This document shows positions 5,064-37,095 of a DNA stretch of 64,000 nucleotides, in pieces. Origin of the DNA: Aerosticca soli. Its GTDB lineage: Bacteria > Pseudomonadota > Gammaproteobacteria > Xanthomonadales > Rhodanobacteraceae. The stretch's first letter is position 1. Each line of letters begins with the position of its first letter. The position numbers and the translations under genes are program-made. The stretch is from the NCBI RefSeq assembly GCF_003967035.1, contig NZ_AP018560.1, positions 2,589,501 through 2,653,500 on the forward strand, written 5' to 3'. Under the pieces are notes generated by a model. The model saw only the letters and a program-made list of their open reading frames with translations, was not told the DNA's origin and ran no database searches.

Positions 5064-5130
5064 CGGCCTCCTCCTCCCATGGGGTATACGGATTTAAGGA
5101 CACGCTGAACAAATCAGCATTTTACTGGAA

Positions 5131-5721: not shown

Positions 5722-6518
5722 ATGTGAACACGCGCATCCGCCGCCTGACCGAGGCCTACAGTACAGAGCAGCTGCATGATGTCTTGAGCAACGCAGGCAT
5801 AGCAGGGCCACACTCATTCATTCGAGGGCTTGACGCCGACTACGACCGCGACGTACTCATCGGCCAGTGGCTGCGGCCGCTCACGGCAGCGGATGACCTG
5901 CGCTTCGTTGTGCACGTGGACCATAGCGAGGTGTGGGTCCTGGCGGAGAGGCTCCCCTGGGATTCCGAGTTCTTCGGCCTCGGAATGGCTAGGCTGAATG
6001 CGGTGGTGCGGCCGGGACGCACGGCTGCCACACGCGATGACGGTCGGGAGATGGCGCAGGCGTTGACGGCAGTCGCAGACCTGTTCAAGCAGCAGCGGAT
6101 CGACTACGTGTTTGCTGCGGTCTCGCCTGCCGATCTCCCATTGATCCGTGCAATCTCGGCCAACGGGTTCGAGCTCATCGAGACGCGCTGTCACTACCAT
6201 CGCGCCCTTTCGGGTCCACCGGCCCAGCGGTACGCCACGCGATTGGCCCGGCCTGAGGATGTGCCTTCGCTCGCGCGCGCGGCCCGCGTCATGGTCAATT
6301 CTTACGACCGCTTCCACGCCGATATCGCCATCGCTCCAGCGGCAGCTGACAGGCTCATGGAGCGTTGGGTCGAGGCATCCATTATGGATGGCTTCGCTGA
6401 TGCGACGATCGTGCCCGACGAGCCCGAGCCCGAAGCATTCTGCACAGCCCGCTATCACCGGCAGCACTGGGAGGGCTGGAAACTTCGCCTTGCCCAACCC
6501 GTACTTAGTCGCCCCTGA
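5718..6518 (+). pseudogene. GNAT-type amino-sugar N-acyltransferase (WecD/RffC-like), 3' end cut by an IS
   Basis: The 266-residue product contains LPWDSEFFGLGMARLNAVV, typical of dTDP-4-amino-4,6-dideoxygalactose N-acetyltransferases, followed by GNAT-like sequence. This suits a partner of the upstream sugar isomerase in making an N-acylated amino sugar. The reading frame runs about three codons into the IS5-type element that begins at 6508 and stops at 6518, so the native C-terminus is lost. Nothing like its 3' end appears on the far side of the insertion. Whether the product remains active is unknown. Confidence 0.7.
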
Positions 6519-8139
6519 AAAATTCATTTTCACGCCGCCCTTAGCCGCAGCTGGGCAGGGTTGGCGCCACTGGTCTCGGTTGGCCGCCGCTGGGCGAGCC
6601 ACCGGCCGATGAGGCGCACGGCCGCAATGAGGCGCAAAAAAGCTCGCCTCAAGAAGGGCACGCCCTTCTTCGTGATCATGCGCAGCAGCCAGCGGATGTT
6701 GTAGCCCGCCGCGCACAGCACCGCGTGCAGCCGGTCACCCTGCTCGCCCTTGAGATGGCACCTGTCCATGCGGTGATCCTGCTTCAAGTGCCCGATGACC
6801 GGCTCGATGGCCTGGCGGCGCTTGAGCAGCTTGCGCTCCTCGTGCGTCAGGCGCTTGATCTTGCCGCGGTGCGCCAGGCGCACATCCGCAATGTCGGCTT
6901 CCACCCCGCGGTAGCCCAGATCGGCAAACGCTGTGCTGGGCTTGATGCCAGTGTCCTGCATCAGGATGGTGGCCTGCTCAATCTGGGCTTGCAGCGTGTG
7001 GCCGTCGTAGGGGTTGCCGTGGAAGGCCCGTGCGCCCAAGATCAGGCTGTGCTTCAAGGTGCTGACAATGCCGACCTTGACGCCGAACTCGTAAGGGCAG
7101 CGGGCCTTGCCCTTGTTGATGCACTCCACCTCCGGCGCGTGCCAGGCGTAGAGCTTGCGTCCCTCTTCGGTGGCCTTGCGGTTGGCGGTTTGCGCCACGA
7201 TGCGCACAGCCTTGTTCAAGGTCTCACCGAGCGCTTCGCGTATGGCCTGCCCCAGGCGGGCAGCCTTGCGCTCGATCTCGCGCTGCAGTCTGGCCACGAT
7301 GGTGCGCTGACGCTTGATGACCCGGCGCATGCGTGCGAACTGCCGCGCGTGCGCATAGCGTCCTGCCTTGCGGCTGAGGTCTTTGCCTTCCTTGGCAAAG
7401 GTCTGCTTCAAGGCGATGCCGGCTTGCTTGGCTGCTTGCACCAGCTTGGTGCGCGCGGTCTCGAGCAAGCGGCTGTCGGTCGGGTGCGCCACCGCCTTGG
7501 GTTGTACGGTGGTGTCCACCACCACGCGCTTGAGTTCCTGCGGCTTGATGAGTCCGGTTCCCACCGCCACGTTGATCGTCTGCGCCAGGAGTTCTTCCAC
7601 CCCCTCCTCGCCCAGCAGCCGGCGAAACTTCACCAGCGTCGTGGCGTCGCACGGCCGGCGATGTTCAAAGTACGCCCGCCCCGAGAAGAACTGCCATGTG
7701 GGGGTTTCGCCCCAGCGCTCGACCACCCCTTCGTCCGACTCGTTGAAGGCGTGCTTCAGATACAGCAGCGCGATCATCACGCGCAGCGGCACGCGGGGTC
7801 GGCCTGCGTTGGACGCCCGAGCTGCGCGCACCGGAGATTCGCCAAAGAGGTCCAGATCGGGCATCGCGACACCTGCGCGCGCTTTGCGCATGAACAGGTG
7901 CGACAGCCTTGCTTCCAACTCCTGCCACGGCATGCGCGAGGTCAGCACCGCCAGCGGATGGCGCAGGTCGATCATCTGATCGAGCCGGGCGCGGAAGAAG
8001 TCCTCGGTGGCGGGGCAGGCAAACATCGAAAAACTCCCAGAAAACGGCGCATCAGACCATCAAATCTGGGGGAAATTGTACTCGCAAACAGACAATAACA
8101 CACGAAAAATCATGAGGTTATGAATATTTCAGGGGCGAC
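6508..8139 (-). mobile_element. IS5-type insertion sequence, 1,632 bp, complete
   Basis: The ends are 20-bp inverted repeats with one mismatch: GTCGCCCCTGAAAAATTCAT at 6508-6527 and its mirror at 8120-8139. The dinucleotide TA lies directly outside both ends (6506-6507 and 8140-8141), consistent with a 2-bp target duplication. One uninterrupted transposase gene fills it. The insertion sits in the acyltransferase 3' end. Confidence 0.88.
6530..8026 (-). CDS. IS5-family DDE transposase
   Basis: The 498-residue transposase has an N-terminal region (FFRARLDQMIDLRHPL) typical of long IS5-type transposases. The acidic triad appears as VVVDTTVQPKA, FADLGYRGVEAD and IEPVIGHLKQDHRMDR. Start ATG 8026 follows GGGAG by seven bases. 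The frame is intact and both terminal repeats are present, so the element should be able to move. The family call is confident; the exact subgroup is not. Confidence 0.87.
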   Translation of the reverse strand: MFACPATEDFFRARLDQMIDLRHPLAVLTSRMPWQELEARLSHLFMRKARAGVAMPDLDLFGESPVRAARASNAGRPRVPLRVMIALLYLKHAFNESDEGVVERWGETPTWQFFSGRAYFEHRRPCDATTLVKFRRLLGEEGVEELLAQTINVAVGTGLIKPQELKRVVVDTTVQPKAVAHPTDSRLLETARTKLVQAAKQAGIALKQTFAKEGKDLSRKAGRYAHARQFARMRRVIKRQRTIVARLQREIERKAARLGQAIREALGETLNKAVRIVAQTANRKATEEGRKLYAWHAPEVECINKGKARCPYEFGVKVGIVSTLKHSLILGARAFHGNPYDGHTLQAQIEQATILMQDTGIKPSTAFADLGYRGVEADIADVRLAHRGKIKRLTHEERKLLKRRQAIEPVIGHLKQDHRMDRCHLKGEQGDRLHAVLCAAGYNIRWLLRMITKKGVPFLRRAFLRLIAAVRLIGRWLAQRRPTETSGANPAQLRLRAA

Positions 8140-8302
8140 TAATTGTAATGGGGGGGCTGTCAATAGCAAGATGGCATATTGTCGCGGGGATGTATCAAAA
8201 ATGTTGCATTGGCGAGGCTGCGACGGGGGGCCGTGCATGCGGGTTACCCCCAGCGGAGCCCCCAGTGGAGTGACCCATCGGGATTGCACTCCGGGTGTAG
8301 GG

Positions 8303-8319
8303 TTGGCATACTATGCCAA
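8303..8319. promoter_or_regulatory. Perfect 17-bp palindrome upstream of parD (candidate autoregulatory operator)
   Basis: TTGGCATACTATGCCAA is a perfect palindrome centred on 8311 and ends 22 bases before the parD start, in the promoter zone. ParD and ParDE complexes of this type usually bind such a site to repress their own operon. An AAGGAG ribosome site at 8330-8335 follows. The 160 bases from the IS end (8140) to here hold no gene. Confidence 0.7.
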
Positions 8320-8341
8320 TCTTTCCTGCAAGGAGATCGTC

Positions 8342-8623
8342 ATGCCGACGCGCAATGTTGTCCTCACCGATCACCAGGCCGCGCTGGTAGAGCATTTGGT
8401 CGCCAGCGGCCGCTACCAGAACGCCAGCGAAGTGCTGCGCGAGGGCTTGCGTCTTGTCGAACAACGCGAGGCCGAGGACGCCAGCCGCCTCGAAGCGCTG
8501 CGCGCCGCCGCCAAGGCGGGCATCGCCGATATCGAAGCGGGACGCTACAAGACGTTCGATACCAAGGAATCCTTGCGCGCTCACCTGAAGGCCGTGACAG
8601 CCCAAACGCTCGCCCAAGCATGA
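8342..8623 (+). CDS. parD: ParD-type antitoxin
   Basis: The 93-residue protein begins MPTRNVVLTDHQAALVEHLV and continues with YQNASEVLREGLRLVEQREA, the ribbon-helix-helix pattern of ParD/CopG antitoxins. Its C-terminal half (residues about 45-93) is the toxin-wrapping segment. An AAGGAG site six bases upstream supports ATG 8342; longer forms in the same frame begin inside the IS. The stop overlaps the toxin start (ATGA), giving coupled translation. The pair sits at the right end of the element, where it would penalise element loss. Confidence 0.88.
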   Translation: MPTRNVVLTDHQAALVEHLVASGRYQNASEVLREGLRLVEQREAEDASRLEALRAAAKAGIADIEAGRYKTFDTKESLRAHLKAVTAQTLAQA

Positions 8624-8970
8624 GCGAGCCGTGGCGCGTTCGCCTGGCCGCCAGTGCCGAGGCCGATCTGCTCGACATCGCGGCGTGGACGGCGGAGCGC
8701 TTCGGTTCCCGGCAGGCTGGGTACTACGTCGACACCGTGACACAAGCCATCGAGGCCTTGCACGAGGGGCCCGACATCCTGGGGGCCAAAGCGAGGGACG
8801 ACATCGCGCCCGGCATTCGCACCCTGCATGTGGCGCGGCAGGGCAGAAAGGGCCGTCACTTCGTCGTGTTCCGGGTTGCCCCGGGGCGAGTCATCGAGGT
8901 GCTCCGCCTGCTTCACGACAGTATGGATCTGTCGAGGCATTGGCCGAACGATGACGCTGAAATCCAGTGA
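8620..8970 (+). CDS. parE: ParE-type toxin (RelE/ParE superfamily)
   Basis: The 116-residue protein shows RVRLAASAEADLLDIAAWTAERFG at the start, AGYYVDTVTQAIEALHEGPDI in the middle and HFVVFRVAPGRVIEVLRLLHD near the end, the ParE toxin layout. ParE proteins poison DNA gyrase and are neutralised by ParD. It overlaps parD by four bases. The frame is intact. The last gene-like sequence before the proposed attachment site lies 120 bases downstream. Confidence 0.88.
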   Translation: MSEPWRVRLAASAEADLLDIAAWTAERFGSRQAGYYVDTVTQAIEALHEGPDILGAKARDDIAPGIRTLHVARQGRKGRHFVVFRVAPGRVIEVLRLLHDSMDLSRHWPNDDAEIQ

Positions 8971-9091
8971 GACCGTGAGCAGCGGGGCTACAGCGTGCTC
9001 CTGCGGGGGCGGCGTGAAACGGACAAACGCCCGAAACTTTCCGCACTGGCCCGAAGGATTGCGCAGGGGTTTGGAAAATGAGTTCGAAATC

Positions 9092-9111
9092 GGTGGTTGA
9101 CTGCACCACCA
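9092..9111. other. Candidate element end / attachment-site core
   Basis: GGTGGT (9092-9097) and ACCACC (9105-9110) form a perfect 6-bp inverted repeat around TGACTGC. Sequence shared with the other B copy ends at 9111, one base after this structure. In each copy a different rho-independent terminator begins within about seven bases. This is where a large serine recombinase could have joined element ends. No matching left chromosomal junction is in the window to prove it. Confidence 0.5.
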
Positions 9112-9375: not shown

Positions 9376-10341
9376 TCAAGCCTGCACGGGGCTCAATGCT
9401 GCAGCACAGGGCATCGAGTACAGCCCCGGGCGCCCCTGCACGACCTGGACGAGGGCCCGGTATGCAACGAGTGGCCCTTCGGCTTCCGGCTTGCCCTTGT
9501 CGCGCGTCTTGACCTTGAACACGTCGATGGGCTTGGCGCTGTCGAGCCCGGCACGCCGCATGACCTGTTCGGCGGTGCGGGGCTCCCCCTTGAACGACCA
9601 CAGGGCCTCGAACACTGCTGCCTGAGCCTCGGTCAGCCGGATCGGGCCGTGCGGCCAGTCGGGCAGCGTGACCCAGCGGAAATCCGCCGAGAAAGGCCCC
9701 TTCACTGGCGTCGTTGGATCGCTGGCCTGCGGGTCTGGCGGCTCACCCGGCAGGCCGATGAGCGCGATGCCGCCACCGTAGAGGGTGAAGCGATCTTCCA
9801 ACGCCCACCACTGCACGCCCGGCCCGAAGGGCGCACCGCGCGTTTCGCGCGGTTTGGGTGTAATCACCCGAACGTCGCCACCGGTCACGCGCACCCGATC
9901 CAGCAGCGCTGGTTCTTGCCACAGCCTCACGATGTCGCGTGCGAGCAGCACCGGCGCGCGCCGGGATTCGCCCAGCCGCCACACGCCGTCACCAAGGTCG
10001 TCGATGCCGTCGCGGCTGTCGATCGCAAGGGCCAGGCGCAGCTTCTGGCGCAGCCAGTCCTCGTTCAACCGCAGCGCTGCGCCGTCCTGCGGCGAGACCG
10101 GCACCGGCCCGCAGTCCGGGCAGCGGCACAAGCGTCCGCCGCGCCCGTCGCCGAACACCGGCGCCCGATGCAGCGCACAATGCGGGCACAGCACGCAAGA
10201 TTGATCAGTCACGGCCGCCTGGATCGCGCGGCCCAGGTGCGGCAGCAGCGCCACCTCGCGCGGCGACAGGGTGGCGCGCAGCACCGGCATGCCCGCGGCG
10301 AACAGCCGGCAGACGAACTGCCAGCCCTCGTGTGCCGACAT
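9376..10341 (-). CDS. Unrecognised protein with two CxxC zinc-ribbon-like motifs
   Basis: I do not recognise this 321-residue protein. Near residues 45-80 it has CVLCPHC and CRCPDCG, four cysteine pairs suggestive of zinc binding, perhaps to nucleic acid. The C-terminal third (LTEAQAAVFEALWSFKGEPRT) reads like a winged-helix segment. It begins one base after the stop of the upstream unknown gene, so the two are co-translated. Both face away from an XRE/ImmA/HEPN cluster. No membrane segment or signal peptide is evident. It is single copy in the window because it lies in block C. Confidence 0.6.
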   Translation of the reverse strand: MSAHEGWQFVCRLFAAGMPVLRATLSPREVALLPHLGRAIQAAVTDQSCVLCPHCALHRAPVFGDGRGGRLCRCPDCGPVPVSPQDGAALRLNEDWLRQKLRLALAIDSRDGIDDLGDGVWRLGESRRAPVLLARDIVRLWQEPALLDRVRVTGGDVRVITPKPRETRGAPFGPGVQWWALEDRFTLYGGGIALIGLPGEPPDPQASDPTTPVKGPFSADFRWVTLPDWPHGPIRLTEAQAAVFEALWSFKGEPRTAEQVMRRAGLDSAKPIDVFKVKTRDKGKPEAEGPLVAYRALVQVVQGRPGLYSMPCAAALSPVQA

Positions 10342-10342: not shown

Positions 10343-11578
10343 TCACGCGTCCTCGGGAGTCGTCGCCCTGACCGTGCCCGCGGCGAAGGGTGCCTCCTGT
10401 GCGCTCAAGGTCTGGCCGGGGCGCAGGATGCCGATGCGTACCAGGTAGCGCTCCAGCTGCGCTTGCAGCTTGGCATCGAACTGGTGCAGGTTGAGCCGCC
10501 CGCGGCTCGTGACCTCGATGGGCACCACGCGCGCCCGGGTGCGCCCTGGCTCGGGAGGGTAGTACAGGTTGATCTGAGCCGCCAGCACCGCCCAGCGGCC
10601 TTCCAGCGGGCCCGGCAGTTGATCGCGCAGCAGTTCATGCACCGAGCGGTGCTGACTGGCCTGCATGGCCGTGCACTCGATTTTCAGATCTCCCTCCGGA
10701 CTCAGCAGCGTGAGCGACTTCAGCTGCACCAGCGAGAAGCCGTCCTCGAACACCTCCGGCACATCGAAGCCCGTGCGCAGCGCCGACAAGTCCAGCGCCG
10801 GGGCCTTGATACGCTCGGGCGTGGCCTTCACCCCGAGCACATGCTCGGCGAAGGCCTCCACCAGCATCTGCTGCACCTTGTGACCGCCGCGCGCCAGGGT
10901 GCGCACCACGCCCGTGGCTTCGGCGTACTCCAACACCATGTGGATGTTCGGGTTGCCCACGCGCTGCTTCAACACCACGCCCTCGAACTCCAGGCGCAGC
11001 TCGGCCAGGTCTTTGACGTGCACCGTCAGCAGGTGGATGCCGGGGCTCCTGGGCACGAGATAGGCCACACAGCCCTCGCCGCACTGGCGCTCGCGCTGGT
11101 AGTAGGCCGAGATCGCTCGACGCAGACCGGCCAGTGCGGCGTCCGTCGGGATCGCAGGGCGCCGCACTCCCAAGTCGTATTGCTGCGCCTGGGCGCTGTG
11201 GTGCGCCCAGAAATCGAGATCGCTGGCGCGTTCGAACAGCGCCCGGTGCCGCACGTACAGCCAGAACGAGCGATGCAGGTCGCTCTGGCACAACGCCAGG
11301 CCCGTCACCACGGCGGGATCGGACAGCGCCGCCTCGAACATCGCCTGGCCGCCCGCGGCATCACCCAGCGCGACGCTGGCCACCAGCTCGGCCGTCAGCC
11401 GGTCGCGCGCCGAGGTGTCGCCCCACGTCATTATGGCTTCAATCACGGCCCGGTTCGGCGGCTCGTGCGGCTGTGCATCGAGCGCTGGCGGCACCGCCAG
11501 CCCATGGCTGGCGAGAAACTGGTGCAGCGTCTCATCCGGCGGCAGCGCCTGCAGCACGTCGACATAGGTCTTCTTCAT
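10343..11578 (-). CDS. Unrecognised 411-residue protein, divergent from the XRE gene
   Basis: I do not recognise this protein. It appears soluble, with an N-terminal helical part and a mixed C-terminal part. The start MKKTYVDVLQ at 11578 has an AAGGAC-type site upstream; a longer form from 11638 is less likely. It is followed immediately by the zinc-ribbon gene. It shares a 245-bp intergenic region with the XRE regulator, which contains repeated GTATCAC-like half-sites, so the XRE protein may control both directions. The D/D' junction cuts this gene: only its first 58 codons recur at 29151-29326. Confidence 0.6.
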   Translation of the reverse strand: MKKTYVDVLQALPPDETLHQFLASHGLAVPPALDAQPHEPPNRAVIEAIMTWGDTSARDRLTAELVASVALGDAAGGQAMFEAALSDPAVVTGLALCQSDLHRSFWLYVRHRALFERASDLDFWAHHSAQAQQYDLGVRRPAIPTDAALAGLRRAISAYYQRERQCGEGCVAYLVPRSPGIHLLTVHVKDLAELRLEFEGVVLKQRVGNPNIHMVLEYAEATGVVRTLARGGHKVQQMLVEAFAEHVLGVKATPERIKAPALDLSALRTGFDVPEVFEDGFSLVQLKSLTLLSPEGDLKIECTAMQASQHRSVHELLRDQLPGPLEGRWAVLAAQINLYYPPEPGRTRARVVPIEVTSRGRLNLHQFDAKLQAQLERYLVRIGILRPGQTLSAQEAPFAAGTVRATTPEDA

Positions 11579-11664
11579 CGCGTCTCGGTCCTTTCCTTGA
11601 GGTGACGTCGGAGGTCTGCTGACCGAGGCTTCGGGCACGCGGGCCGGCGACGGCTGACTGAACT

Positions 11665-17260: not shown

Positions 17261-17500
17261 GGCCGCACGGGTGCGGTGCAGGCGCGGCTTGCGCTGCGGA
17301 CGCTCGGTGGTGTCCTCGTACACGCCGTCGAGCCACAGCATGTGGAAGTGGATGTTGAGATTCAGCGCGCTGCCGAAGCGCTGGATCAGGGTCACCACGC
17401 CGCATTGCGCCGTATCCCGCGGCACGCCGGCCTGATCGGCAAGCCAACCGGCGATCACACGATGCACGATGCCCAGCACCGGGCCGATCGCCTCAGGCCA
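17261..17500 (-). pseudogene. IS91-family transposase, N-terminal/middle fragment
   Basis: Minus-strand codons read WPEAIGPVLGIVHRVIAGWL and then TLIQRFGSALNLNIHFHML, the region of an IS91-type rolling-circle transposase that carries the conserved histidines. The match stops at LHRTRA at the cassette edge. The continuation (TSAQLTELAG) is 6.7 kb away at 23966. The N-terminus before about 17500 is missing. Confidence 0.8.
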
Positions 17501-17640
17501 GGACCCAGTAGTTGGGCCGAGGCGCCGATGTCATCGCGGAACGGGCAGGACGGTAGATGATCGCGGTCGGCACGTCCCAGGATGGCAGATCGGTTCCAGG
17601 AATTTTCGGCGGGAATGGTGGGCGATTATGGCCGCGCATA

Positions 17641-18261
17641 TCAGTTCTCCCGGGTGTCGGTGGATACGAGAAGGTGACGTTCGAGATCGTCGAGTTTTTC
17701 CATTCGCCTCGAATTCAGGCGAACGGCGCGTTCGGTGTTCTGCGAAGGAAAGGCAGCAGCGTGCAGGACGTCCGACCGCATCGCTATCGTGAGATCGGCG
17801 ACGGCATTCATCACGCGCTCTCCGTCCCCGTCCGAGAGCGTGCCGTCAGCAAAACCGGACTGCAAGCTCTCCAGTACCTGCTCGAAGCTGGACACGACCC
17901 CTGCACTCGCGACCACAGCCAGCTTGTGGCTGAGAACACGCAGTTCATCGATCAGCTTCGCATCGTGCCTTGCGGTTTCCACGATCTCTGCGACCTTCTC
18001 GATGCAGGCCATGTAAATGTCGCATTGCTGCTGGAGGATGATGACCCTTCCTTCCTTGCGAAGCTCGAGATCGGTCTGGCGGTTGAGAAGCGCCGCGGTC
18101 AGAATGATCGTCACGACAGCGCCGAGAAAGATGAGCGTCATCTCCTGCGCGAAAGGCAGCGTGTCTTCGGCAAGATACATCGAGCGAAAAAGGAAAACGA
18201 TGCCGATGCCGAAGGCAGCGGCCGCAGCCGCAAGTGCCAAGTCAGGCAGGCGGTTCGACAT
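17641..18261 (-). CDS. Small integral membrane protein with a long cytoplasmic tail, unknown function
   Basis: The roughly 206-residue protein has two predicted membrane helices (residues about 8-28 and 40-60, including LIFLGAVVTIILTAALL). A helical, probably coiled tail of about 140 residues follows. Start ATG 18261 follows GAGG at a good distance; a GTG six bases earlier is also possible. I do not recognise the family. It lies between the IS91 fragment and a 56-bp repeat, outside the repeat-bounded bacteriocin cluster. It may be passenger DNA rather than part of the bacteriocin system. Confidence 0.6.
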   Translation of the reverse strand: MSNRLPDLALAAAAAAFGIGIVFLFRSMYLAEDTLPFAQEMTLIFLGAVVTIILTAALLNRQTDLELRKEGRVIILQQQCDIYMACIEKVAEIVETARHDAKLIDELRVLSHKLAVVASAGVVSSFEQVLESLQSGFADGTLSDGDGERVMNAVADLTIAMRSDVLHAAAFPSQNTERAVRLNSRRMEKLDDLERHLLVSTDTREN

Positions 18262-18354
18262 CAGCACCTCGCATTTTCGATATCAGGGGGCATGCACGGC
18301 TTTGCATCGGCGTCCGGCGCCTCTGCGTCCCGGTGCCGCAGGAAGATTGGCGTC

Positions 18355-18410
18355 GGGTATAGGAAGTTCAACCGCCCTTTTTTGCGAGTCTGGCAGGTAG
18401 GAAGCGGCCG
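18355..18410. repeat. 56-bp direct repeat, copy 1
   Basis: This segment, from GGGTATAGGAAGTTCAACCG to GGAAGCGGCCG, is identical to 22853-22908. Together they enclose the bacteriocin genes and an IS3 remnant. The second copy lies about 200 bases past the 3' end of the IS91-type transposase, where such elements keep their replication-start end. The repeat may therefore be an IS91 terminus. Confidence 0.85.
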
Positions 18411-18411
18411 G

Positions 18412-18772
18412 GGTATAACAACGTGCCGGAGTTCACCAGCCGCGCCTTCATCGCCTGGACGCAGCAACACGGTATCGTGCACATCCTGATCGAACCGGGC
18501 TGCCCGACGCAAAACGGCTACATCGAAAGCTTCAACGGCAAGTTCCGCGACGAGTGCCTCAACGAGCATTGGTTCATCTCGCTCGCCCAAGCTCGCGACG
18601 TCATCGCCGACTGGCGACGTGACTACAACGAGGTTCGACCTCACAGCAGTTGCGGTCGCATCCCACCAGCGCAGTTCGCCGCCAACCACCGAACACAACA
18701 ACCCAGCAACGAAGTACCCTTCAACCCCGGACTTTGCCAGTAATCACTGGTACGACCTGCGGGGGCAGGTCA
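18412..18772 (+). pseudogene. IS3-family transposase (OrfB) C-terminal remnant with right end
   Basis: The frame reads PEFTSRAFIAWTQQHGI, then PGCPTQNGYIESFNGKFRDE with the catalytic glutamate, then RRDYNEVRPHSSCGRIPPAQ. This is the last third of an IS3 integrase-type transposase. The rest is missing; it abuts the 56-bp repeat. GGGGGCAGGTCA at 18761-18772 looks like the right terminal repeat. Confidence 0.85.
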
Positions 18773-18875
18773 TATGGCGGGCACGCATCGCTCGTCGATG
18801 TCACATGGCGGCAACTGATCAGACCTTCCCTAGAAGTCACTTTTTTCTTCGAGATCGGCTTCGTCATCGCATCTC

Positions 18876-19079
18876 TCAATTTCCATCTTTCCTGTGCAAA
18901 AATATTGCTCTTGCAACCAAGGGGGCCACTATAGCCACAAAAACAAGCGCAACCAAAATTGAAAAATTATTATTTATATACATCCTCAAGAAAAAGAAAA
19001 TCATAATATCCATCATGAATATGGCAATCATCGTTCCAAGAAGCAACGCCCCAAATTTGCCTCCCGAGATCTTGTTCAT
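18876..19079 (-). CDS. 67-residue membrane protein, candidate bacteriocin immunity protein
   Basis: The protein has two hydrophobic spans (ALLLGTMIAIFMMDIMIFFF and ILVALVFVAIVAPLVARAIF) and a short basic tail ending HRKDGN. ATG 19079 has a strong AAGGAGG site. It directly follows the precursor peptide gene, from which it is separated by a strong hairpin, the usual place for an immunity gene. The local DNA is much richer in A+T than the surroundings, which suggests a separate origin. The immunity role is inferred from position and size; no family is recognised. Confidence 0.6.
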   Translation of the reverse strand: MNKISGGKFGALLLGTMIAIFMMDIMIFFFLRMYINNNFSILVALVFVAIVAPLVARAIFLHRKDGN

Positions 19080-19111
19080 GAATCCTCCTTAACAACCCTT
19101 GGAATTAAACA

Positions 19112-19141
19112 GCGCTGGCCATGTATCAACATGGCCAGCGC
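19112..19141 (-). promoter_or_regulatory. Strong intergenic hairpin after the bacteriocin precursor
   Basis: GCGCTGGCCATGT and its exact complement form a 13-bp stem around a 4-nt loop, starting 12 bases past the precursor stop codon. The T-run after it on the minus strand is weak (TGTTTAATT). It could partly stop transcription or protect the upstream mRNA, raising precursor output relative to the downstream gene. Confidence 0.6.
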
Positions 19142-19152
19142 CCACACACTCG

Positions 19153-19347
19153 CTATTTCTCAAGCAGATGGCTTGTCGCAATAAACGCGCCAGCAAGGCC
19201 AAGTCCAACAGCTCCAGCCACAAGCACAGGCGCTCCGACCAAACCCAATCCCACACCTGCTACCGTTCCAACCCAAGCCTCGGCGATATCAAGAGCCAAC
19301 ATACCACCGTTGACCTGACCAACTTCATGCATAGTCAATTCTTTCAT
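19153..19347 (-). CDS. Double-glycine-leader bacteriocin (class II microcin-like) precursor
   Basis: The 64-residue product has the leader MKELTMHEVGQVNGG, with the expected hydrophobic residues at -4, -7 and -12 relative to the Gly-Gly cut. The 49-residue core starts MLALDIAEAWVGTVAGVGLG and is rich in Gly, Ala and Val with GxxxG-like repeats, typical of membrane-active class II bacteriocins. It has no cysteine. ATG 19347 is preferred over GTG 19350 for its AAAAGGAG site, which overlaps the exporter 3' end. The exporter upstream has the matching C39 leader peptidase. Target range cannot be read from the sequence. Confidence 0.82.
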   Translation of the reverse strand: MKELTMHEVGQVNGGMLALDIAEAWVGTVAGVGLGLVGAPVLVAGAVGLGLAGAFIATSHLLEK

Positions 19348-19353
19348 CACTCG

Positions 19354-21561
19354 TCACTCCTTTTGTACGCCGGATATATCCGCCGCTCCGGCTTCAGCTT
19401 TGCCAATCGCCACATCTACGGTTTGGCAAACTTTGGCTTGCGTATCAACTAGGGCAAGCATTCTGTCCGCGCTGGCCATCGTTTCCAGCCGATGCGCAAT
19501 AATGATTCGCGTAAGCGCTAAATGCTGTATGGTGGTACTTATCAATCGCTCACGCTCCACATCCAGATGACTGGTCGCCTCGTCAAGGACCAGCAGCTTC
19601 GGTTGCCGATACAGCGCCCGCGCCAGAATCACCCGCTGCTTCTGTCCGCCAGACAGGCTGGAACCCATGTCGCCCACCAGGCTCTGGTAACCCATCGGCA
19701 TCCGCACGATGTCCTCGTGAATCGCCGCCATCTGCGCCGCCGCCACGATCCGCTCCATCGATGCCTCCGGATCGAAGAAGCTGACGTTGTCGGCGATGGA
19801 GCCGGCGAAGAGCTGATCGTCCTGCATCACCGCGCTGGCCCACTGGCGATAGGTGTCCAGGCCTAGCTTGCGGATGTCTATGCCGCCGAACAGTACTTCG
19901 CCTTCGGTAGGCTCGAGCAGACCAAGCACGATCTTCGCCAAGGTGGTCTTGCCGCAGCCGCTGGGACCGGTGATCGCCACCGACTCGCCCGCTTCGATGC
20001 GCAGGTTGCAGTGCCTCAGGATCCACGGCTCACCCTCGGCATAGCGGAAGCTGACGTTGCGCAGTTCCACGCTGGCCTCGGGAGCGGGGCCCGTCCAGGC
20101 GGTCTCGGCCCGCGGCTCCGGTGCAGTCAGGGCAACGTCCGCCACCCGTTCGGCATGCAGCCGCAGCATGCGGAAGTCCGTCCACTTGTCGACCAACCCC
20201 GCTGCCCGGCTGGTGAACTGGTCCGCGTAGGCGATGAACGCCACCAGCATGCCGGCCGAGAACTCGTTCCTGAGCGCCAACGCGGCGGCAATCCAGATCA
20301 ACGCCACCCGCCCCAGCCCGAACATCAACTGGTTGCCCAACGCGAAGGCGATGGTGAGCCGCTGGACGCCGATATCGCGGTTGGTGGCGGCGACAGTAGC
20401 GTTGGCATAGCGCGCCAGCCGCTCGTCCTGCTTGTTGGCCAGTTTGACGGGCATGGCACCGCGGATAGATTCCAGCAATTCGCTCTGCTGACGCGCGGCA
20501 TAGACGATCTGTTCCTCGCTGGCCCGACGCAGTGGCCCGAACCACAACCAGCGTGCCAAGCCATAGGCCAGGAACAGCCCCAGCACCACTAGCGTCAGCC
20601 ATGCGCTGTAGAAAGCCATCACCACCAGCGTGACCAGCGACATCAACCCGTCCAGCAGGGAACCGACGAACTGCGTGGTCAGGGTTTTCTGGATGGTCTG
20701 GATGGAGCCGAAGCGCGACACCACGTCGCCCACGTGGCGCTTCTCGAACCAGTCCAGCGGCAGCCGCATCAGGTGGCCGAACAGGTTGCCGGCCCATTGC
20801 ACGTTGAGCGTGGCGCCCAGCCAGGTCACCGCCCACGAACGCGCGGCGGTGACCAGCGCCGACAGGATCGCCAGCGCGCCAAAACCCAGACCCAGCAAAG
20901 TAAGCAGGTCGCGGTCGGCCGAGACCAGCACCTGGTCCAGTACCCATTGAAGGTAGAACGGCGCGGCCAATGCGAAAACTTCCAGCGCCAGCGCCAACAT
21001 CAGGATCTGCGCCAGCGCGGGCGCCAGGCCCTGCACCTTGCCTGTGAGCGCACGCAGCGAGACCGCCTGCCGTTCGCGCACCGGCGCGAAGTCGGCGGCT
21101 GGCGACAGTTCCAGCGCTACGCCGGTGAAATGATCGGACACCTCGCGCATGCCCAACTTGCGGACTCCGCCCGCCGGATCGTGGATAACGATGCCGCGAC
21201 GCGCGACGCGCTTGAGTACGACGAAATGGTTGAGGTCCCAATGCAGCACGCAGGGGGTGCGCAACTGCGCCAGATCGTCGAGATCCAGCTTCAGCGGGCG
21301 ACAAACGAAACCGAGCTTTCCGGCCATCTCCATCAGCCGGGCCAGGGTCACGCCCTTGAGCGAAGCGACGAAGCGCCGGCGCAAGCTGGCCAGGTCCATG
21401 TCGTGGCCGTGGTAGTTCGCCACCATCGCCAGGCAGGCCAGGCCGCATTCGGCCGCTTCCGTCTGCAACAGCATCGGCAAGCGGCGCGACCAGCCGAATT
21501 GCAGACGGGTATGTATACCCGCGCTGGCGGCCGTCGAGCTGGACTGCGCACCGTCAGCCAT
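19354..21561 (-). CDS. Peptidase-containing ABC transporter (C39 family) for bacteriocin maturation and export
   Basis: The 735-residue inner-membrane protein has three parts. An N-terminal C39 peptidase (residues 30-165) shows TEAAECGLACLAMV with Cys39, LHWDLNHFVVLKRV with His112, and Asp128. A six-helix transporter domain spans about 185-480. The nucleotide-binding domain has Walker A GPSGCGKTT near 531, signature LSGGQKQR, Walker B LLVLDEATSHLD and the switch histidine in IIIAHR. It would cut the precursor after Gly-Gly and pump the core out with the HlyD adaptor and an outer-membrane channel encoded elsewhere. It overlaps the adaptor gene by eight bases. Confidence 0.93.
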   Translation of the reverse strand: MADGAQSSSTAASAGIHTRLQFGWSRRLPMLLQTEAAECGLACLAMVANYHGHDMDLASLRRRFVASLKGVTLARLMEMAGKLGFVCRPLKLDLDDLAQLRTPCVLHWDLNHFVVLKRVARRGIVIHDPAGGVRKLGMREVSDHFTGVALELSPAADFAPVRERQAVSLRALTGKVQGLAPALAQILMLALALEVFALAAPFYLQWVLDQVLVSADRDLLTLLGLGFGALAILSALVTAARSWAVTWLGATLNVQWAGNLFGHLMRLPLDWFEKRHVGDVVSRFGSIQTIQKTLTTQFVGSLLDGLMSLVTLVVMAFYSAWLTLVVLGLFLAYGLARWLWFGPLRRASEEQIVYAARQQSELLESIRGAMPVKLANKQDERLARYANATVAATNRDIGVQRLTIAFALGNQLMFGLGRVALIWIAAALALRNEFSAGMLVAFIAYADQFTSRAAGLVDKWTDFRMLRLHAERVADVALTAPEPRAETAWTGPAPEASVELRNVSFRYAEGEPWILRHCNLRIEAGESVAITGPSGCGKTTLAKIVLGLLEPTEGEVLFGGIDIRKLGLDTYRQWASAVMQDDQLFAGSIADNVSFFDPEASMERIVAAAQMAAIHEDIVRMPMGYQSLVGDMGSSLSGGQKQRVILARALYRQPKLLVLDEATSHLDVERERLISTTIQHLALTRIIIAHRLETMASADRMLALVDTQAKVCQTVDVAIGKAEAGAADISGVQKE

Positions 21562-22825
21562 GCGCCTGCCCTCCCAACCGGTGGCCGATGCCGTACAGCG
21601 GCTCGAACACCCATTCGATCAGGCGCCGCCGTTCCATCAGAATGTCCGCCTCCACTGCCATGCCCGGCTTGACCGGCTCGGCCTTGCCGTAGGCCATGAC
21701 GCGCTGGCTGTCCAGCGCTACCTGGACCCGGTACAGCGGCTCCTTTGCCTGCTCGCCGACCAGGGCCGCCACTTCCGAGGGCGCCAGGGCGCTGCGCGAG
21801 ACGTCGTCCACGCGCCCGTACTGCTGCCCGAACTTTTGATAGGGAAATGCCTGGTAGCGCAGCACTACCCGGTTGCCCGGGGCGATGAAACCGATCGCCC
21901 GGCTGGGCACCAATAGCTGCGCCTGCAAGGTCGCGCCGGCCGGCAGCAGCGAAAGCAGCGGCTGCCCGGCGCTCACCATCTGCCCTTCCTTGAACAGCAC
22001 GGCCGACACCACCCCGTCGCGCGGCGCGCGCAGCACCACCGCTCGCGCCATCTCGTTCTGCGCCATGGACTGGAGGACGGACGCCAATTGCCGTTCGGTC
22101 TCGTTGCGCTTGGCCGCCGCTTCCAGCGGCAATTGCGAGAGTGCCTGGCGAGCGGCCTCCAGTTGCTGCCGCGTATCCAACTGCTGACGGACGAGAGCCT
22201 TGTACTGCGTCTGCGCGTCGAGCAGCGCCGTGCGCTGCTGTTGCACCTGCAAGATCGATACGTAGCCCTTGGCGGACAGCGGTTCGATGCGTTCCAGCAA
22301 TTGCCGGTTGCTGGTGACCTGCTGTTGCTGAAAATCCAGCTGGCCGGCGATCTGGTCGAGCTGGGCGCTCAACAGCCCGATCTTGGCCTTGAGCGCCGCT
22401 GCCTGCTGCTTGACCAATACCTGCTGCTCGTCCAGGTCCGAGGCCAGCCGCGTGCGCTGGATTTCGAGCTGCTGGCCCACCAAGGCGTGCGTGCTGCCGA
22501 GCGCCGCGCTGTCCTGATCGCCGGCAAGCTCGAGCAGGGCCTCCCCTGCCTTGACGGGCTGGCCGTCGCGCACGCGCAGCCGCACTACGGTACCGGCAGT
22601 GGGCGCGGCAACGTTCAACAAGCCTGCGCTGGGTACCAGCTGACCGGCCACCGTCTCGCGGCGGGTATAGGAACCGAGAAAAAGAAATAGCAGCAACGCC
22701 GTGGCGACCGACAGCGCCAAGGCCGTGAGCAGCCAGCGCGACAACGGCGCCGCCATCACGATGGAGCCCAGCCATTCCCCGCGCCGGACCTCCACGACTT
22801 CCTTGCGAAACAACGTCCCCGACAT
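21554..22825 (-). CDS. HlyD-family periplasmic adaptor of the bacteriocin exporter (CvaA-like)
   Basis: The protein of about 423 residues has one N-terminal membrane helix (LLTALALSVATALLLFLFLG). A lipoyl-like segment follows (VAAPTAGTVVRLRVRDGQPV), then a long coiled coil rich in Gln and Leu (about 100-240), a second lipoyl half (VLRAPRDGVVSAVLFKEGQM) and a beta-barrel domain. Start ATG 22825 has GGGGAG nine bases upstream; a TTG start at 22843 would add six residues. It links the C39 ABC exporter to an outer-membrane channel such as TolC. It is the first gene of the minus-strand bacteriocin operon. Confidence 0.9.
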   Translation of the reverse strand: MSGTLFRKEVVEVRRGEWLGSIVMAAPLSRWLLTALALSVATALLLFLFLGSYTRRETVAGQLVPSAGLLNVAAPTAGTVVRLRVRDGQPVKAGEALLELAGDQDSAALGSTHALVGQQLEIQRTRLASDLDEQQVLVKQQAAALKAKIGLLSAQLDQIAGQLDFQQQQVTSNRQLLERIEPLSAKGYVSILQVQQQRTALLDAQTQYKALVRQQLDTRQQLEAARQALSQLPLEAAAKRNETERQLASVLQSMAQNEMARAVVLRAPRDGVVSAVLFKEGQMVSAGQPLLSLLPAGATLQAQLLVPSRAIGFIAPGNRVVLRYQAFPYQKFGQQYGRVDDVSRSALAPSEVAALVGEQAKEPLYRVQVALDSQRVMAYGKAEPVKPGMAVEADILMERRRLIEWVFEPLYGIGHRLGGQAHG

Positions 22826-22830
22826 GCCTA

Positions 22831-22848
22831 CGTACTCCCCCAAGTACG
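22831..22848 (-). promoter_or_regulatory. Hairpin presenting the ribosome site of the HlyD gene
   Basis: CGTACT and AGTACG pair perfectly around the loop TGGGGG, whose G-run overlaps the likely ribosome site of ATG 22825. The structure lies between the 56-bp repeat and the first gene of the bacteriocin operon. It could be an operator or a translational control element. Confidence 0.4.
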
Positions 22849-22852
22849 GTTT

Positions 22853-22908
22853 GGGTATAGGAAGTTCAACCGCCCTTTTTTGCGAGTCTGGCAGGTAGGA
22901 AGCGGCCG
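22853..22908. repeat. 56-bp direct repeat, copy 2
   Basis: This segment is identical to 18355-18410. It lies immediately upstream of the bacteriocin operon and about 200 bases beyond the stop of the IS91-type transposase fragment. The 200 bases between (22909-23108) contain a doubled GGGCACAGATC and no gene. Confidence 0.85.
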
Positions 22909-23108
22909 CGCAAGCGCCGCTTTGGGCACAGATCGGGCACAGATCGGGGGTTCATGCGTGGGTTTTCGACATCGCGGGGCCACGCAGCGGCTCAGTGCGT
23001 AGCCATTTCTCACCGAATCCCGGCACAGGGCCGAGCGCAGCCCTGCGGGGTCGTGGCCGCATCGGATCGGATTCTGCTTTCGCTTCCGGTTGAGTGGCCG
23101 GCACCTCG

Positions 23109-23966
23109 TCACGCGGCCGGCGGCGGGGCGCGCGCTGCGGGCCGGTAGTGCGCTTGCTCCAGCGCGCCGTGCTTCTCGAAGTGGGCGAGGATGGCGCGGA
23201 TGGCGGTGGGTTCCTCGATGCTGGCGACGATCCGTACCGCGCCGCCGCAGTGGGCGCAGGTGGTGACGTCGATGGAAAAGACCCGCTTGAGCCGTTGCGC
23301 CCAGCTCATCGCACGGCGCTTCTGCTCGGGGCTGCGCGGCTCGTCGTGGGCGCTTGCGTCCACTGGCGCCGCATCGCCCGCAGGCCGCTTGCCGCGCCCC
23401 GATGGCGTCACCTGCGCGCGCAGATTCGCGTTCGGGGCGAATACGCCGTGGAAGCGGGTGAGATGCGCGCGTGGCGGCGGGACCAGTGCCGCCAGCTTGG
23501 CGATGAAGTCCACCGCATCCCATTCGACATGCGTGGTCCCATTGCGCCACGGCGTCTTGAGCTGATACCGCACCCTACCCTGCGATGAGATCGATAGCCG
23601 CTGCTCGCTGATCGCCGGGCGCGTGATGTAGCGGCACAGCTTTTCGAGCTTGTGGCTCTCGTGTGCTTCCGCGGCCACGCCGGCATGCAGCGAGAAGCCG
23701 CCGACCTTGCCGGCGTCGCCGTCCAGAGAACCCGCATCACCGGGTAGCGTTTTCAGGGTGACGACCTTGCGGCCAGCGTCGCGACCGGTGGCGATGCGGT
23801 AGGTGATCGAACTCATCCGCAGCGCGTCCATGCCGTCGTCGCTACCCGCGCTGTCGGACAGAAACACGGATTCGTCCTCGCCTTCCAGCCAGCCTTTGCG
23901 CGTCAGGTGCCGGCACACGCGATGCGCGATGGTGCCGGCCAGTTCCGTCAGTTGCGCCGATGTGGG
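23109..23966 (-). pseudogene. IS91-family transposase, C-terminal fragment
   Basis: Codons from TSAQLTELAGTIAHRVCRHL to the C-terminus match the latter part of an IS91-type transposase. They include KLEKLCRYITRPAISEQRLS and LTRFHGVFAPNANLRAQV, plus CAHCGGAVRIVASIE near the end. The upstream frame beyond 23966 is unrelated sequence. The missing middle is at 17261-17500. Confidence 0.85.
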
Positions 23967-23992
23967 CCGCTGACCATCCCCCTGTCCCCAAG

Positions 23993-28815: not shown

Positions 28816-29150
28816 CCCGCGCCCGTGCCCGAGATCCCGGCGTCCGAGCGCCGCGAGGCCCTGCGCGCCGCGCTGCTCGCGAGGCTGGAAGCGGTGCTGT
28901 TCTCGCTGTTCCCGCCGGTCGGACGCGCCGCGGCAAGTTCGTCATCGGCGACGTGCTCGGCAGCCCGGGCGACAGCCTGGAGGTCGTGCTCGACGGCGAC
29001 AAGGCGGGGCTCTGGACCGACCGTGCCACCGGCGACGGCGGCGATGTGTTCCACCTGATCGGCGCTCACTTCGGCGTGGACGTGCAGGGCGACTTCGCCC
29101 GCATCCTCGACCTGGCCGAGGACCTCGTCGGCCGTGCCCCCACGGCCCCG
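28799..29150 (+). pseudogene. Primase-helicase 5' fragment, frameshifted and cut by the D/D' junction
   Basis: This is the start of the gene that is intact at 46542-48824. Single bases are missing near 28806 and 28917, and the sequence jumps at 29150 into antisense of the 411-residue gene. It cannot make the enzyme. Confidence 0.85.
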
Positions 29151-29326
29151 TCGCGCGCCGAGGTGTCGCCCCACGTCATTATGGCTTCAATCACGGCCCG
29201 GTTCGGCGGCTCGTGCGGCTGTGCATCGAGCGCTGGCGGCACCGCCAGCCCATGGCTGGCGAGAAACTGGTGCAGCGTCTCATCCGGCGGCAGCGCCTGC
29301 AGCACGTCGACATAGGTCTTCTTCAT
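29066..29326 (-). pseudogene. Chimeric ORF across the D/D' junction
   Basis: The first 58 codons are those of the 411-residue unknown gene (MKKTYVDVLQ...). After 29151 the frame continues into antisense of the primase-helicase gene and stops at 29066. It is a product of the join, not a likely functional gene. Confidence 0.85.
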
Positions 29327-29412
29327 CGCGTCTCGGTCCTTTCCTTGAGGTGACGTCGGAGGTCTGCTGACCGAGGCTTCGGGCACGCGGGCCGGCGACG
29401 GCTGACTGAACT

Positions 29413-29516
29413 TGTGTCACGCCAAAGTAAAGCAGCGTGATACAGCGCGATTGTGTCCCGGCCTGATCCGCTTGTCAAACTGCATGGCACATCTAGCGGC
29501 GTTTGGTATCACAGGG
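29413..29516. promoter_or_regulatory. Candidate XRE operator, D' copy
   Basis: Second copy of the half-site array at 11665-11768, offset by 17,748, unchanged. Confidence 0.4.
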
Positions 29517-29571
29517 CTATACTGTCGGATCGCATTCCAACACTTCCCGTGATTCGAGACGGGACATCGCC

Positions 29572-29910
29572 ATGGCTTCCGCGTTTGGATCTCGCCTGCG
29601 GCGATTCCGCGAGGCGAAGAAATTGACCCTGCAGCAGGTGGCCGACGCGGTCGGCTGCACCAAGGCTTACATCTGGGAACTGGAGATGAAGGAGGGCCAA
29701 CGCCCTCCGCCGAGCGCGTGCAGGCGCTGGCCAGGGTGTTGGGCGTCACGATGGAAGACATCATGGGTGAGCCCATCCCCAGGTTCCCGAGGCCAGTCCC
29801 GAGGACGTGGCCTTCTTCCGCGAGTACGCCGGGATGACGGAGGAGGAGAAGAGACGCTACCGGCAGGCGCTCGAGATCATGTTCCCGACAAGGGCCAGGG
29901 CGGGGACTGA
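29572..29910 (+). pseudogene. XRE regulator, D' copy, frameshifted
   Basis: One base is missing from each of three runs (near 29704, 29779 and 29884) compared with 11824-12165. The HTH start is intact but the rest shifts frame. Loss in homopolymers suggests sequence error. Confidence 0.8.
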
Positions 29911-29913
29911 CGA

Positions 29914-30832
29914 TTGGGCACCGCGTGCCACCTCACCGGTTCGATTGCTGCCAGCCATGTCCACAAGTGGCTGCGGGCATGGTACGGCGCGGACGTGCCC
30001 GAGGCCATCGATCTCGATGTCGTGCGGCAAATGCTGCCGACCACGCCCTACGGCAAAGGGGTTCGGGAAATTCGTCCCCCGGTGCAGTTCAACGACGATG
30101 CCTTCGAGGGCATGCTGGCGCGGGATCCCGGCGACCCTGAGGTCTGGGGTATCGCCTACAACGGCACGGTCAGCCCGCAGCGCCAGCGATTCACCATCGC
30201 TCACGAGCTCGGGCACTTCATCCTGCACCGCGACCGGCAGCAGCGCTTCAACTGTGACAAGGAGAGCGTCTACTCGGGCCACGAGACGATGCGCCTGATC
30301 GAGCGCGAGGCCGACGACTTCGCCAGCAACTTGCTGATGCCCGGCGATCGGCTGCGCGAGTGGATCTCGAACGGACGCATCGATCTGCACGTCCTCAGCG
30401 CCATTGCCAAGCGCTTCCAGGTCTCGTTCGGCGCTGTGCATCTGCTTCATCAAGTTCACCTCGCAGCGCGCCATCCTGGTCTACTGGGACAACGGCTACG
30501 CGAAGTACGAATGGCGCAGCAGCAGCGCCGTCAGGACGCGGGCGCGCATCCGACGCACCGGCGATCCGCAAGAGCCGTTACCCGGCACGCTCGCCGCCGA
30601 CGCGAGCGTCGTGCAGGCGTGGGACGGCATCGAGATGTCTGCTGCGATCTGGTGTCCGGAGGAGGCACCCTACATGAAGCTGCGTGAGTTCAAGCACAGC
30701 TACGCCTCGAGAGATCGCGTCCTGACCCTGCTGCTGTTGGAAAGCGCTGAGCCGCGCGCTTGGGATCGGGCGTGGCAGGACGGCGAGAGCTACGACCAGT
30801 TCGTCGCGAACGAGCGGTTACCGGTACGCTGA
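29914..30832 (+). pseudogene. ImmA/IrrE peptidase, D' copy, frameshifted
   Basis: Two bases are missing near 30430 relative to 12169-13089, after the HELGH active site. The N-terminal two thirds and the C-terminal part lie in different frames. Confidence 0.8.
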
Positions 30833-30859
30833 ATTCAGAGCCGTCGCCGAAGATGCCCC

Positions 30860-32292
30860 ATGACTACAAATGCCCAGCGACTGAAGGACGCCCTGGAGGA
30901 GACCCTTCGGCTCCAGAGCCCAGAAAGCGAAGAATACAAGCAATGGCTGCAAGTCCTCGAAACTCGCCGTTTCCTCCTTCTATCCCGGCGGGAAGCAGTG
31001 GCTTCTATCCGACCACCGATCGGGCACTTGGCTGCATAACGGAGATCATCGACAACATCCGAATCAATGACGCCGCGCTTGCCCGAACTCTCAGCAGAGA
31101 TGAAATGTTCAAGCGGGCGATGCTCGCGCTCGGAGCGAATCTTTCATCACTCGTTGAAGTCGCCGATGACGATGAGAGATGGAAGCAGTACCGAGAACCA
31201 TCTCCACTGCGTTCACCGCCTCCCCGACCAGCCAGACTGTCTATGTGCCAGTGTGGCTCTTCGTCCGCCAGGAGTATGGGAGTTTCTCCGTCGGACCCGT
31301 TGAATTCGTTGATCGATCGGGATGGCTAGACAAGGTGGAACTCCTTCGAGGTAGTCGTCCCGCATGGCGATCAGGTGTTGAAACGGCTTGGGGGCTGGCT
31401 AGCAACGATGGCGACGGCGCTGATGGTGACTGCGATCAGATCGTCAAGTTGGCAATCCGGACGGTGACGCGCTTTGCGTCAGCAGAACAAAGAATTGCGT
31501 GTGTCGCCATTGAAGGCTTTGATGATCAAGAGGCGCAGCGTCGAGCACTGCTCGCAGCCCAGAATTGCCATCGACGGCATACGGCTCCTCATCCCAGGCA
31601 GCAACAAGAAAAGGATATTCACCTCAGCCGACCACGGCCCGCCTCGCGCCATCGAGCGACTACGGCAGATGGCTGGGCACGACCTGACCGCTGGTTCAGG
31701 AATGGAAATACCAGGCGTTGGCGGAGCTCCCGGCGCAGCTCAGGAATTGATCGACGCCTCCATAGATTTCCGAAAGGCAGCCGGGAACTGCATCACGGTC
31801 GTCATCAGTCCGACGCCCGCGCAGGAAAACCTACCTGAGCTGTCTCAGCGATGGAGCAATGCCATTCACTGGTATGGTCGGGCATGCGTCTCCGACGCGG
31901 ACTTCGTCGCACTGCCGATGTTTGGTTTCGCACTAGATATTTGTGCGGTGGTAAGGAAGAGGCCGGAATTAGAAATCTGGCTTGCGCGCTCTTCGAGAAA
32001 GAGCCGGAAGACTGGCGTTCGGACGGATGGGTTGACGCTCAAGGCTGCCGTGCGCAAGGTCTACGAATGGCGGTCGAAGATTGCTCATGGCTCCTTGCTG
32101 GCGGCCGACCTCATTCTTGAATCGGAGCGGGTCTTGTCCGAAAGCATCGCCAACGCAATGCTCTATCAGTACGTGATGTGTTTGGAGCAATACCGTTCAA
32201 GCGCGTCCCCCGTGGATACTGGCGAGTACTTCCTGGAGTGGCTCCGGAAGAACCCGCCGTCGACTTGGTCTCCGACACCAACCACGGCCTGA
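30860..32292 (+). pseudogene. HEPN-like protein, D' copy, multiply frameshifted
   Basis: Five single-base length changes (near 30950, 31196, 31556, 31942 and 32013) break the frame that is open at 13117-14550. Confidence 0.8.
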
Positions 32293-36096: not shown

Positions 36097-36152
36097 GGGT
36101 ATAGGAAGTTCAACCGCCCTTTTTTGCGAGTCTGGCAGGTAGGAAGCGGCCG
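36097..36152. repeat. 56-bp direct repeat, copy 3
   Basis: Same sequence as 18355-18410; with 40595-40650 it encloses the second bacteriocin cluster. Confidence 0.85.
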
Positions 36153-36153
36153 G

Positions 36154-36514
36154 GGTATAACAACGTGCCGGAGTTCACCAGCCGCGCCTTCATCGCCTGG
36201 ACGCAGCAACACGGTATCGTGCACATCCTGATCGAACCGGGCTGCCCGACGCAAAACGGCTACATCGAAAGCTTCAACGGCAAGTTCCGCGACGAGTGCC
36301 TCAACGAGCATTGGTTCATCTCGCTCGCCCAAGCTCGCGACGTCATCGCCGACTGGCGACGTGACTACAACGAGGTTCGACCTCACAGCAGTTGCGGTCG
36401 CATCCCACCAGCGCAGTTCGCCGCCAACCACCGAACACAACAACCCAGCAACGAAGTACCCTTCAACCCCGGACTTTGCCAGTAATCACTGGTACGACCT
36501 GCGGGGGCAGGTCA
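36154..36514 (+). pseudogene. IS3 transposase remnant, D' copy
   Basis: Same as 18412-18772. Confidence 0.85.
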
Positions 36515-36617
36515 TATGGCGGGCACGCATCGCTCGTCGATGTCACATGGCGGCAACTGATCAGACCTTCCCTAGAAGTCACTTTTTTCTTCGAGATCGG
36601 CTTCGTCATCGCATCTC

Positions 36618-36821: not shown

Positions 36822-36853
36822 GAATCCTCCTTAACAACCCTTGGAATTAAACA

Positions 36854-36883
36854 GCGCTGGCCATGTATCAACATGGCCAGCGC
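36854..36883 (-). promoter_or_regulatory. Hairpin after the bacteriocin precursor, D' copy
   Basis: Same 13-bp stem as 19112-19141. Confidence 0.6.
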
Positions 36884-36894
36884 CCACACACTCG

Positions 36895-37089: not shown

Positions 37090-37095
37090 CACTCG

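Follow-up and report, generated by a model that had tools for sequence, protein, structure and literature searches.

What do four closely packed genes on the minus strand of the Aerosticca soli genome make, and how did they come to lie where they do? The genes occupy positions 18876–22825 of a 64,000-nucleotide stretch of contig NZ_AP018560.1 (positions 2,589,501 to 2,653,500), the whole of which is referred to here as the window. An earlier inspection of the letters alone, called here the sequence-only reading, had described them as a bacteriocin cassette made up of an adaptor, a C39 exporter, a precursor and a small membrane protein. Our analysis supports this description: all parts of a class II double-glycine system for which the sequence offers a test are present, and the cassette is very probably a bacteriocin or microcin operon of class II (double-glycine leader). 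In operon order, its features are as follows.

21554–22825, minus strand: HlyD-type periplasmic adaptor (membrane fusion protein) of 423 residues, matching TIGR01843 type_I_hlyD and Pfam HlyD_3
19354–21561, minus strand: C39 peptidase-containing ATP-binding cassette (ABC) exporter (PCAT) of 735 residues, identified by the domains Peptidase_C39, ABC_membrane and ABC_tran, by alignment to PCAT1 and by its motifs
19153–19347, minus strand: precursor peptide of 64 residues, with leader MKELTMHEVGQVNGG and a 49-residue core, identified by a leader profile
19111–19142, minus strand: 14-bp hairpin between the precursor gene and the candidate immunity gene (z = -5 against shuffles)
18876–19079, minus strand: candidate immunity protein, a 67-residue membrane protein with two hydrophobic helices, identified by hydrophobicity, a structural model and its position after the precursor

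The place that the sequence-only reading gave for the four genes is right to the base, and so is its placement of the precursor between the exporter and the small membrane protein. The reading frames of the adaptor and the exporter share 8 bp. The ATG of the precursor lies 6 nucleotides past the exporter stop, with the ribosome site AAAGGAG upstream, and the gene of the 67-residue protein is preceded by the ribosome site AAGGAGG. All four reading frames, the ribosome sites and the catalytic motifs are intact. The hairpin, with no more than a weak T-run behind it, is likely an mRNA end or a partial terminator; hairpins of this kind may often determine how much toxin message there is relative to immunity message. 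Among the open reading frames (ORFs) of the cassette there are no modification genes of the type associated with class IIb, siderophore-modified microcins, and there is no kinase or receptor gene.

The exporter matches Peptidase_C39 with an E value of 7.5e-35 and also contains the ABC_membrane and ABC_tran domains. Residues 29–707 align to PCAT1 (4ry2), a bacteriocin exporter of solved structure, with an E value of 1.6e-94. The catalytic triad consists of C39, H112 and D128, and its spacings of 73 and 16 are identical to those of the triad C32/H105/D121 in CvaB (PMC9746304). The ATPase motifs are found at 532 (Walker A), 636 (signature LSGGQ) and 656 (Walker B). Because of this domain set, the PCAT1 alignment and the CvaB-like triad spacing, the protein is classed from its sequence as a processing exporter, not one of the HlyB type. 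The adaptor scores 66.4 bits against HlyD_3 (E 4.5e-18), which is above the cut-off, and 154 bits against type_I_hlyD (E 5.8e-45), which is below the curated cut-off of 208.65 bits. The sequence-only reading had called exporter and adaptor canonical. It had also found no outer-membrane channel. This is correct for the cassette but not for the genome, where 18 TolC-type (OEP) domain matches over the cut-off are located elsewhere.

The precursor agrees in length, leader and core with its earlier description: the core that follows NGG has 49 residues and no cysteine, and 19 of the 49 are glycine or alanine. A position profile was built from 30 leaders of relatives, with the window excluded. The precursor leader is not due to chance, because it scores 34.6 bits with this profile, against a maximum of 15.0 bits for any site when the window was shuffled 30 times. 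The second-best distinct site among the 4360 start codons of the window scores 13.7 bits. In Pfam, the precursor scores 19.0 bits against Bacteriocin_IIc (PF10439; E 0.0014), below the curated cut-off of 27.1 bits, and 12.1 bits against Microcin V (PF17508; E 0.29), below the curated cut-off of 27. A structure prediction made with 26 relatives gives two helices at low confidence (predicted local distance difference test, pLDDT, 56). No relative of the precursor was found in 72,556 plasmids, 50,697 phages, 234 genomes of the same family and a genome collection of ~85,000 species. A weak match in one genome (G198; E 0.006) lies within a 207-residue frame and was discarded as chance. When the genome of A. 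soli itself was searched with a precursor profile, no further cargo was found beyond three identical copies of the cassette, which are described below.

The 67-residue protein is encoded by the next gene after the precursor, and its size is within the range of class II microcin immunity proteins (51–216 residues). It has two hydrophobic segments, which are modelled as two helices with a pLDDT of 76. It matches no named family in Pfam or NCBIfam searches, and no relative was found in 399 genomes of the same order, where the sole weak match lies inside a 281-residue frame and was rejected. The sequence-only reading could not match the core or its 67-residue partner to a named bacteriocin, and this holds in the family, plasmid, phage and genome searches.

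Among known systems, mcbABCI of Moraxella catarrhalis, in which mcbC has been demonstrated to kill and mcbI to protect, has the same order as the cassette: adaptor, exporter, short precursor with a double-glycine (GG) leader, short immunity gene (PMC2761928). Its precursor core and immunity protein are likewise without relatives. In Moraxella the genes of the precursor (77–101 residues) and the immunity protein (74 residues) overlap, whereas here they are 73 nucleotides apart with a hairpin between them (PMC2761928). The mcbABCI genes are plasmid-borne in some strains (PMC2761928), unlike the cassette, which is part of an ISCR insert within an element of the chromosome; the comparison covers the described gene order. 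Class II microcins of the MccV/CvaC type share with the cassette a GG leader, a PCAT with Cys, His and Asp, a membrane fusion protein, TolC encoded elsewhere and a small inner-membrane immunity candidate. The cassette differs from them in its short core free of cysteine, the lack of modification genes and its occurrence outside Enterobacterales, and its immunity candidate follows the precursor instead of preceding it. The cassette belongs to this broad class II microcin or Moraxella-type kind and not to a named Pfam family; the general type of system is well known, the core and the immunity candidate are new, and the mobile setting, though in part uncertain, is unusual. As an orphan toxin-immunity pair, they would join a short list of Gram-negative double-glycine bacteriocins.

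From the gene order shared with mcbABCI, we infer cleavage of the precursor, killing by the core and protection by the 67-residue protein; expression and a target of the peptide are presumed. In the proposed mechanism, the N-terminal C39 peptidase of the exporter would cut the precursor after NGG, and the exporter would work with the adaptor and with a TolC-type channel from another part of the genome to export the hydrophobic, Gly/Ala-rich peptide of 49 residues. The core would most likely enter the inner membrane of related bacteria as a helical hairpin and depolarise it, and the two-helix protein in the inner membrane of the producer would block its own toxin.

Of 232 genomes from the same family, 77 contain related exporters at E < 1e-100, with identities of up to 89%; Fulvimonas, Frateuria, Rhodanobacter, Dyella and Luteimonas are among the genera. 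Adaptor homologues of up to 90% identity adjoin the exporter in these relatives. No exporter homologue was found in viral contigs. Forty exporter loci of relatives were taken and the DNA downstream of the exporter was inspected, with counts given over 42 loci. A strict caller was applied to ORFs within 900 nucleotides downstream of the exporter, and the opposite strand, segments 3–3.9 kb away and shuffles served as controls. An ORF with a GG leader is present on the exporter strand in 20 of the 42 loci, compared with 0/42 on the opposite strand, 4/74 distant segments and 0/210 shuffles. For small membrane ORFs without a leader, the corresponding counts are 10/42, 1/42, 2/74 and 1/210, and in some relatives such an ORF follows the precursor, as the 67-residue gene does here. 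At locus L052, a membrane protein of CPBP/Rce1-like type (E 7.2e-11) is encoded next to the exporter; such proteins are known from bacteriocin self-immunity.

The leaders found downstream of these exporters are of a recurring type, M-x-x-L-T/S-x-x-E-I/V-x-x-V-S/N-G-G, and the cores are mostly Gly/Ala-rich and mutually different; 4 of 26 precursors match Bacteriocin_IIc (at E 0.05) and 3 of 26 match MccV. The systems of Fulvimonas, Frateuria, Dyella, Rhodanobacter and relatives resemble the cassette in their exporter (64–89% identical), adjoining adaptor and leader type, many have Gly/Ala-rich cores, and some have a small membrane ORF nearby. All of their cores are nevertheless unlike the one studied here, and every core match has an E value of 0.6 or higher. 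The nearest exporter, that of Fulvimonas soli (89% identical), has other cargo, with a second GG peptide and a hydrophobic protein inserted between adaptor and exporter. A peptide of F. soli is 84% identical to its relative in a Frateuria locus, and the two exporters are only 73% identical; cargo and exporter therefore differ in history, as seen in a small number of cases. Two sets of GG peptides stand out. Those at L045 (5924–6121) and, downstream of the exporter, at L072 have a common C-terminal LPANVYG motif; in F. soli the gene of such a peptide lies between adaptor and exporter, together with a hydrophobic protein. Those downstream of the exporter at L048, where there are two, and L060 are an unusual type of cargo, with a threonine-rich core between two cysteines, for example GCSTTTTTTKNPDGSTTTTKTKEC.

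In the cassette, DNA similarity to relatives spans the adaptor and the exporter and ends at window 19616–19449 (query ~3210–3377), within the last 30–90 codons of the exporter. At the same place the content of guanine and cytosine drops from 0.66 to 0.52, and it is 0.37 in the immunity gene. Because homology and base composition both break within the last codons of the exporter, the exporters appear to be kept while their cargo is exchanged. The exporter and adaptor would thus form a conserved platform of Rhodanobacteraceae, with the toxin-immunity pair as exchangeable cargo at the 3' end of the exporter gene. Related exporters with unrelated cargo across the family could be mined for narrow-spectrum antibiotics.

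The DNA around the cassette contains remnants of mobile elements. The sequence-only reading had missed this setting, and with it the hairpin, the 56-bp repeats, the further cassette copies, the tandem element that holds them and the probable loss of the native promoter.

17267–23964: 6.7-kb insert that carries the cassette and is absent from a sibling element, recognised by a homology jump in genome G053
17270–17446, minus strand: left piece of an ISCR clade Ia transposase, residues 164–222 (NF052416, E 3.9e-33)
17641–18267, minus strand: 208-residue membrane protein between two ISCR remnants
18355–18410: left copy of a 56-bp direct repeat, a remnant of the same ISCR end as the right copy
18423–18743, plus strand: 3' fragment of an IS3-family (IS476-like) transposase
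22853–22908: right copy of the 56-bp direct repeat, the outermost 3' (oriIS-side) end of an ISCR/IS91-type element
23109–23975, minus strand: C-terminal part of the ISCR clade Ia transposase, residues 224–509 (NF052416, E 1.4e-190)

In the sibling element of G053, which is 95% identical nearby, homology leaps from 17266 to 23965. Because the sibling is continuous across this site and contains no cassette gene, it was the 6.7-kb insert that brought in the cassette. Both transposase pieces are continuous in another genome; most simply, a circular ISCR-borne molecule would have been opened within its transposase gene and joined to the element. The cassette is flanked by the 56-bp repeats, which are perfect and direct. 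Their interpretation as a promoter duplication or a target-site duplication was rejected, as other genomes have this sequence at the end of ISCR-type elements. The 208-residue protein has no family match and its gene lies beyond an ISCR end, and it was dropped as a member of the system. The better-known role of ISCR ends is the movement of antibiotic-resistance genes, and a bacteriocin cassette at such ends suggests a route by which these cassettes spread.

Several observations weigh against a functional bacteriocin operon. In all collections searched, neither the core nor the 67-residue protein has a relative whose function is known. Peptides of a similar export type need not kill: the gonococcal Nap peptides have their role in autolysis and spared competitors (PMC11798529). 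The distance from the ISCR end to the adaptor ATG is 27 bp, and a simple scan of the minus strand upstream of the adaptor found no sigma-70-like promoter; for these two reasons expression is not assured. Because the ISCR end is so close to the adaptor ATG, the native promoter has probably been lost, and transcription would have to begin within the ISCR end. Outward promoters are present in some ISCR ends. The cassette could be a silent operon, moved by ISCR without its promoter and kept as passenger DNA with insertion sequence fragments on both sides, a reading that is compatible with a bacteriocin operon in gene content. We consider it unlikely, if a serious possibility, given that the four frames, the ribosome sites and the catalytic motifs are intact and identical across three copies.

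The Nap peptides also raise a different explanation, in which the secreted double-glycine peptide would act as a signal or in biofilm formation or autolysis, with the membrane protein as its receptor or regulator. RaxX of the Xanthomonas RaxX-RaxSTAB system, a GG-leader peptide from the same bacterial order that a C39 exporter cleaves and exports, is a non-killing cargo of the same export type (PMC6637879). It is sulfated and plant hormone-like (PMC6637879), and the cassette contains no sulfotransferase. Cyanobacterial biofilm peptides are a further cargo of this export type (PMC4997328). Signals are usually conserved, whereas the diverse cargo behind conserved exporters, the linked small membrane ORFs and the CPBP-type neighbour in L052 are typical of toxin-immunity arms races; the lack of a kinase or receptor gene in the cassette also argues against signalling. 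A non-killing role is therefore improbable, and a bacteriocin or microcin operon is the preferred assignment.

The 4554-bp region that contains the cassette is present three times in the assembly with 100% identity. The copies lie in a tandem array of a phage-like element of ~29.8 kb, whose units are nearly identical and which covers positions ~2568799 to 2646161 of genome C1.

-11454 to -6901 of the window (genome C1 2578047–2582600), ~7–11 kb left of the window start: cassette copy 1, identical
18355–22908: cassette copy 2
36097–40650, minus strand: cassette copy 3, in unit C, with its precursor at 36895–37089 and candidate immunity gene at 36618–36821
1–9111: window part of unit A, which is complete
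9106–29154: unit B, truncated, which carries the cassette at 18876–22825
29147–56661: unit C, with its left end missing

On one side the array abuts the CCA end of a tRNA-Phe (GAA) gene to the base, with the attachment core CCACCA, and on the other it ends at 56661. The tRNA-Phe was recognised by eye in the L012 sequence, and ARAGORN was applied to two other stretches. Among the phage-like genes of the element are those for a serine recombinase, DUF2924, a Sak4-like ATPase and a P4-type primase. As a tentative history, somewhat short of even in our estimation, the Rhodanobacteraceae platform would swap its toxin-immunity pair by recombination in the exporter 3' end, which would yield a large and nearly uncharted set of Gly/Ala-rich, membrane-active peptides; one such cassette would have been taken up here by a circular ISCR molecule and put into the tRNA-Phe element, whose tandem integration would have multiplied it.

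Whether all three copies are real is evenly balanced. The array could be wholly or partly a product of assembly, for example of an excised circle and one chimeric junction, which would affect the copy number only. The junction between units B and C may be misassembled, because it is non-homologous and lies inside the P4-type primase gene, and most single-base indels between the copies cluster in the 2.9 kb that follow it (29147–32014); these account for most of the few copy differences. The copy number would then be one to three. The junction between units A and B is a precise end-to-end joint, as expected for tandem integration, which is known for elements of this type, although an excised circle would likewise produce it. 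On the other side, this junction and both chromosomal ends, including the tRNA-Phe CCA end, are precise and biologically sensible.

Two minor observations concern the array and its surroundings. At the left end of the element, the genes at 10343–11638 and 9376–10341 (both minus strand) have no Pfam or NCBIfam match, and the product of the former matches phrog_37634, of unknown function. To the right of the array there is a 59-bp perfect direct repeat (58785–58843 and 59030–59088), with its copies 245 bp apart.

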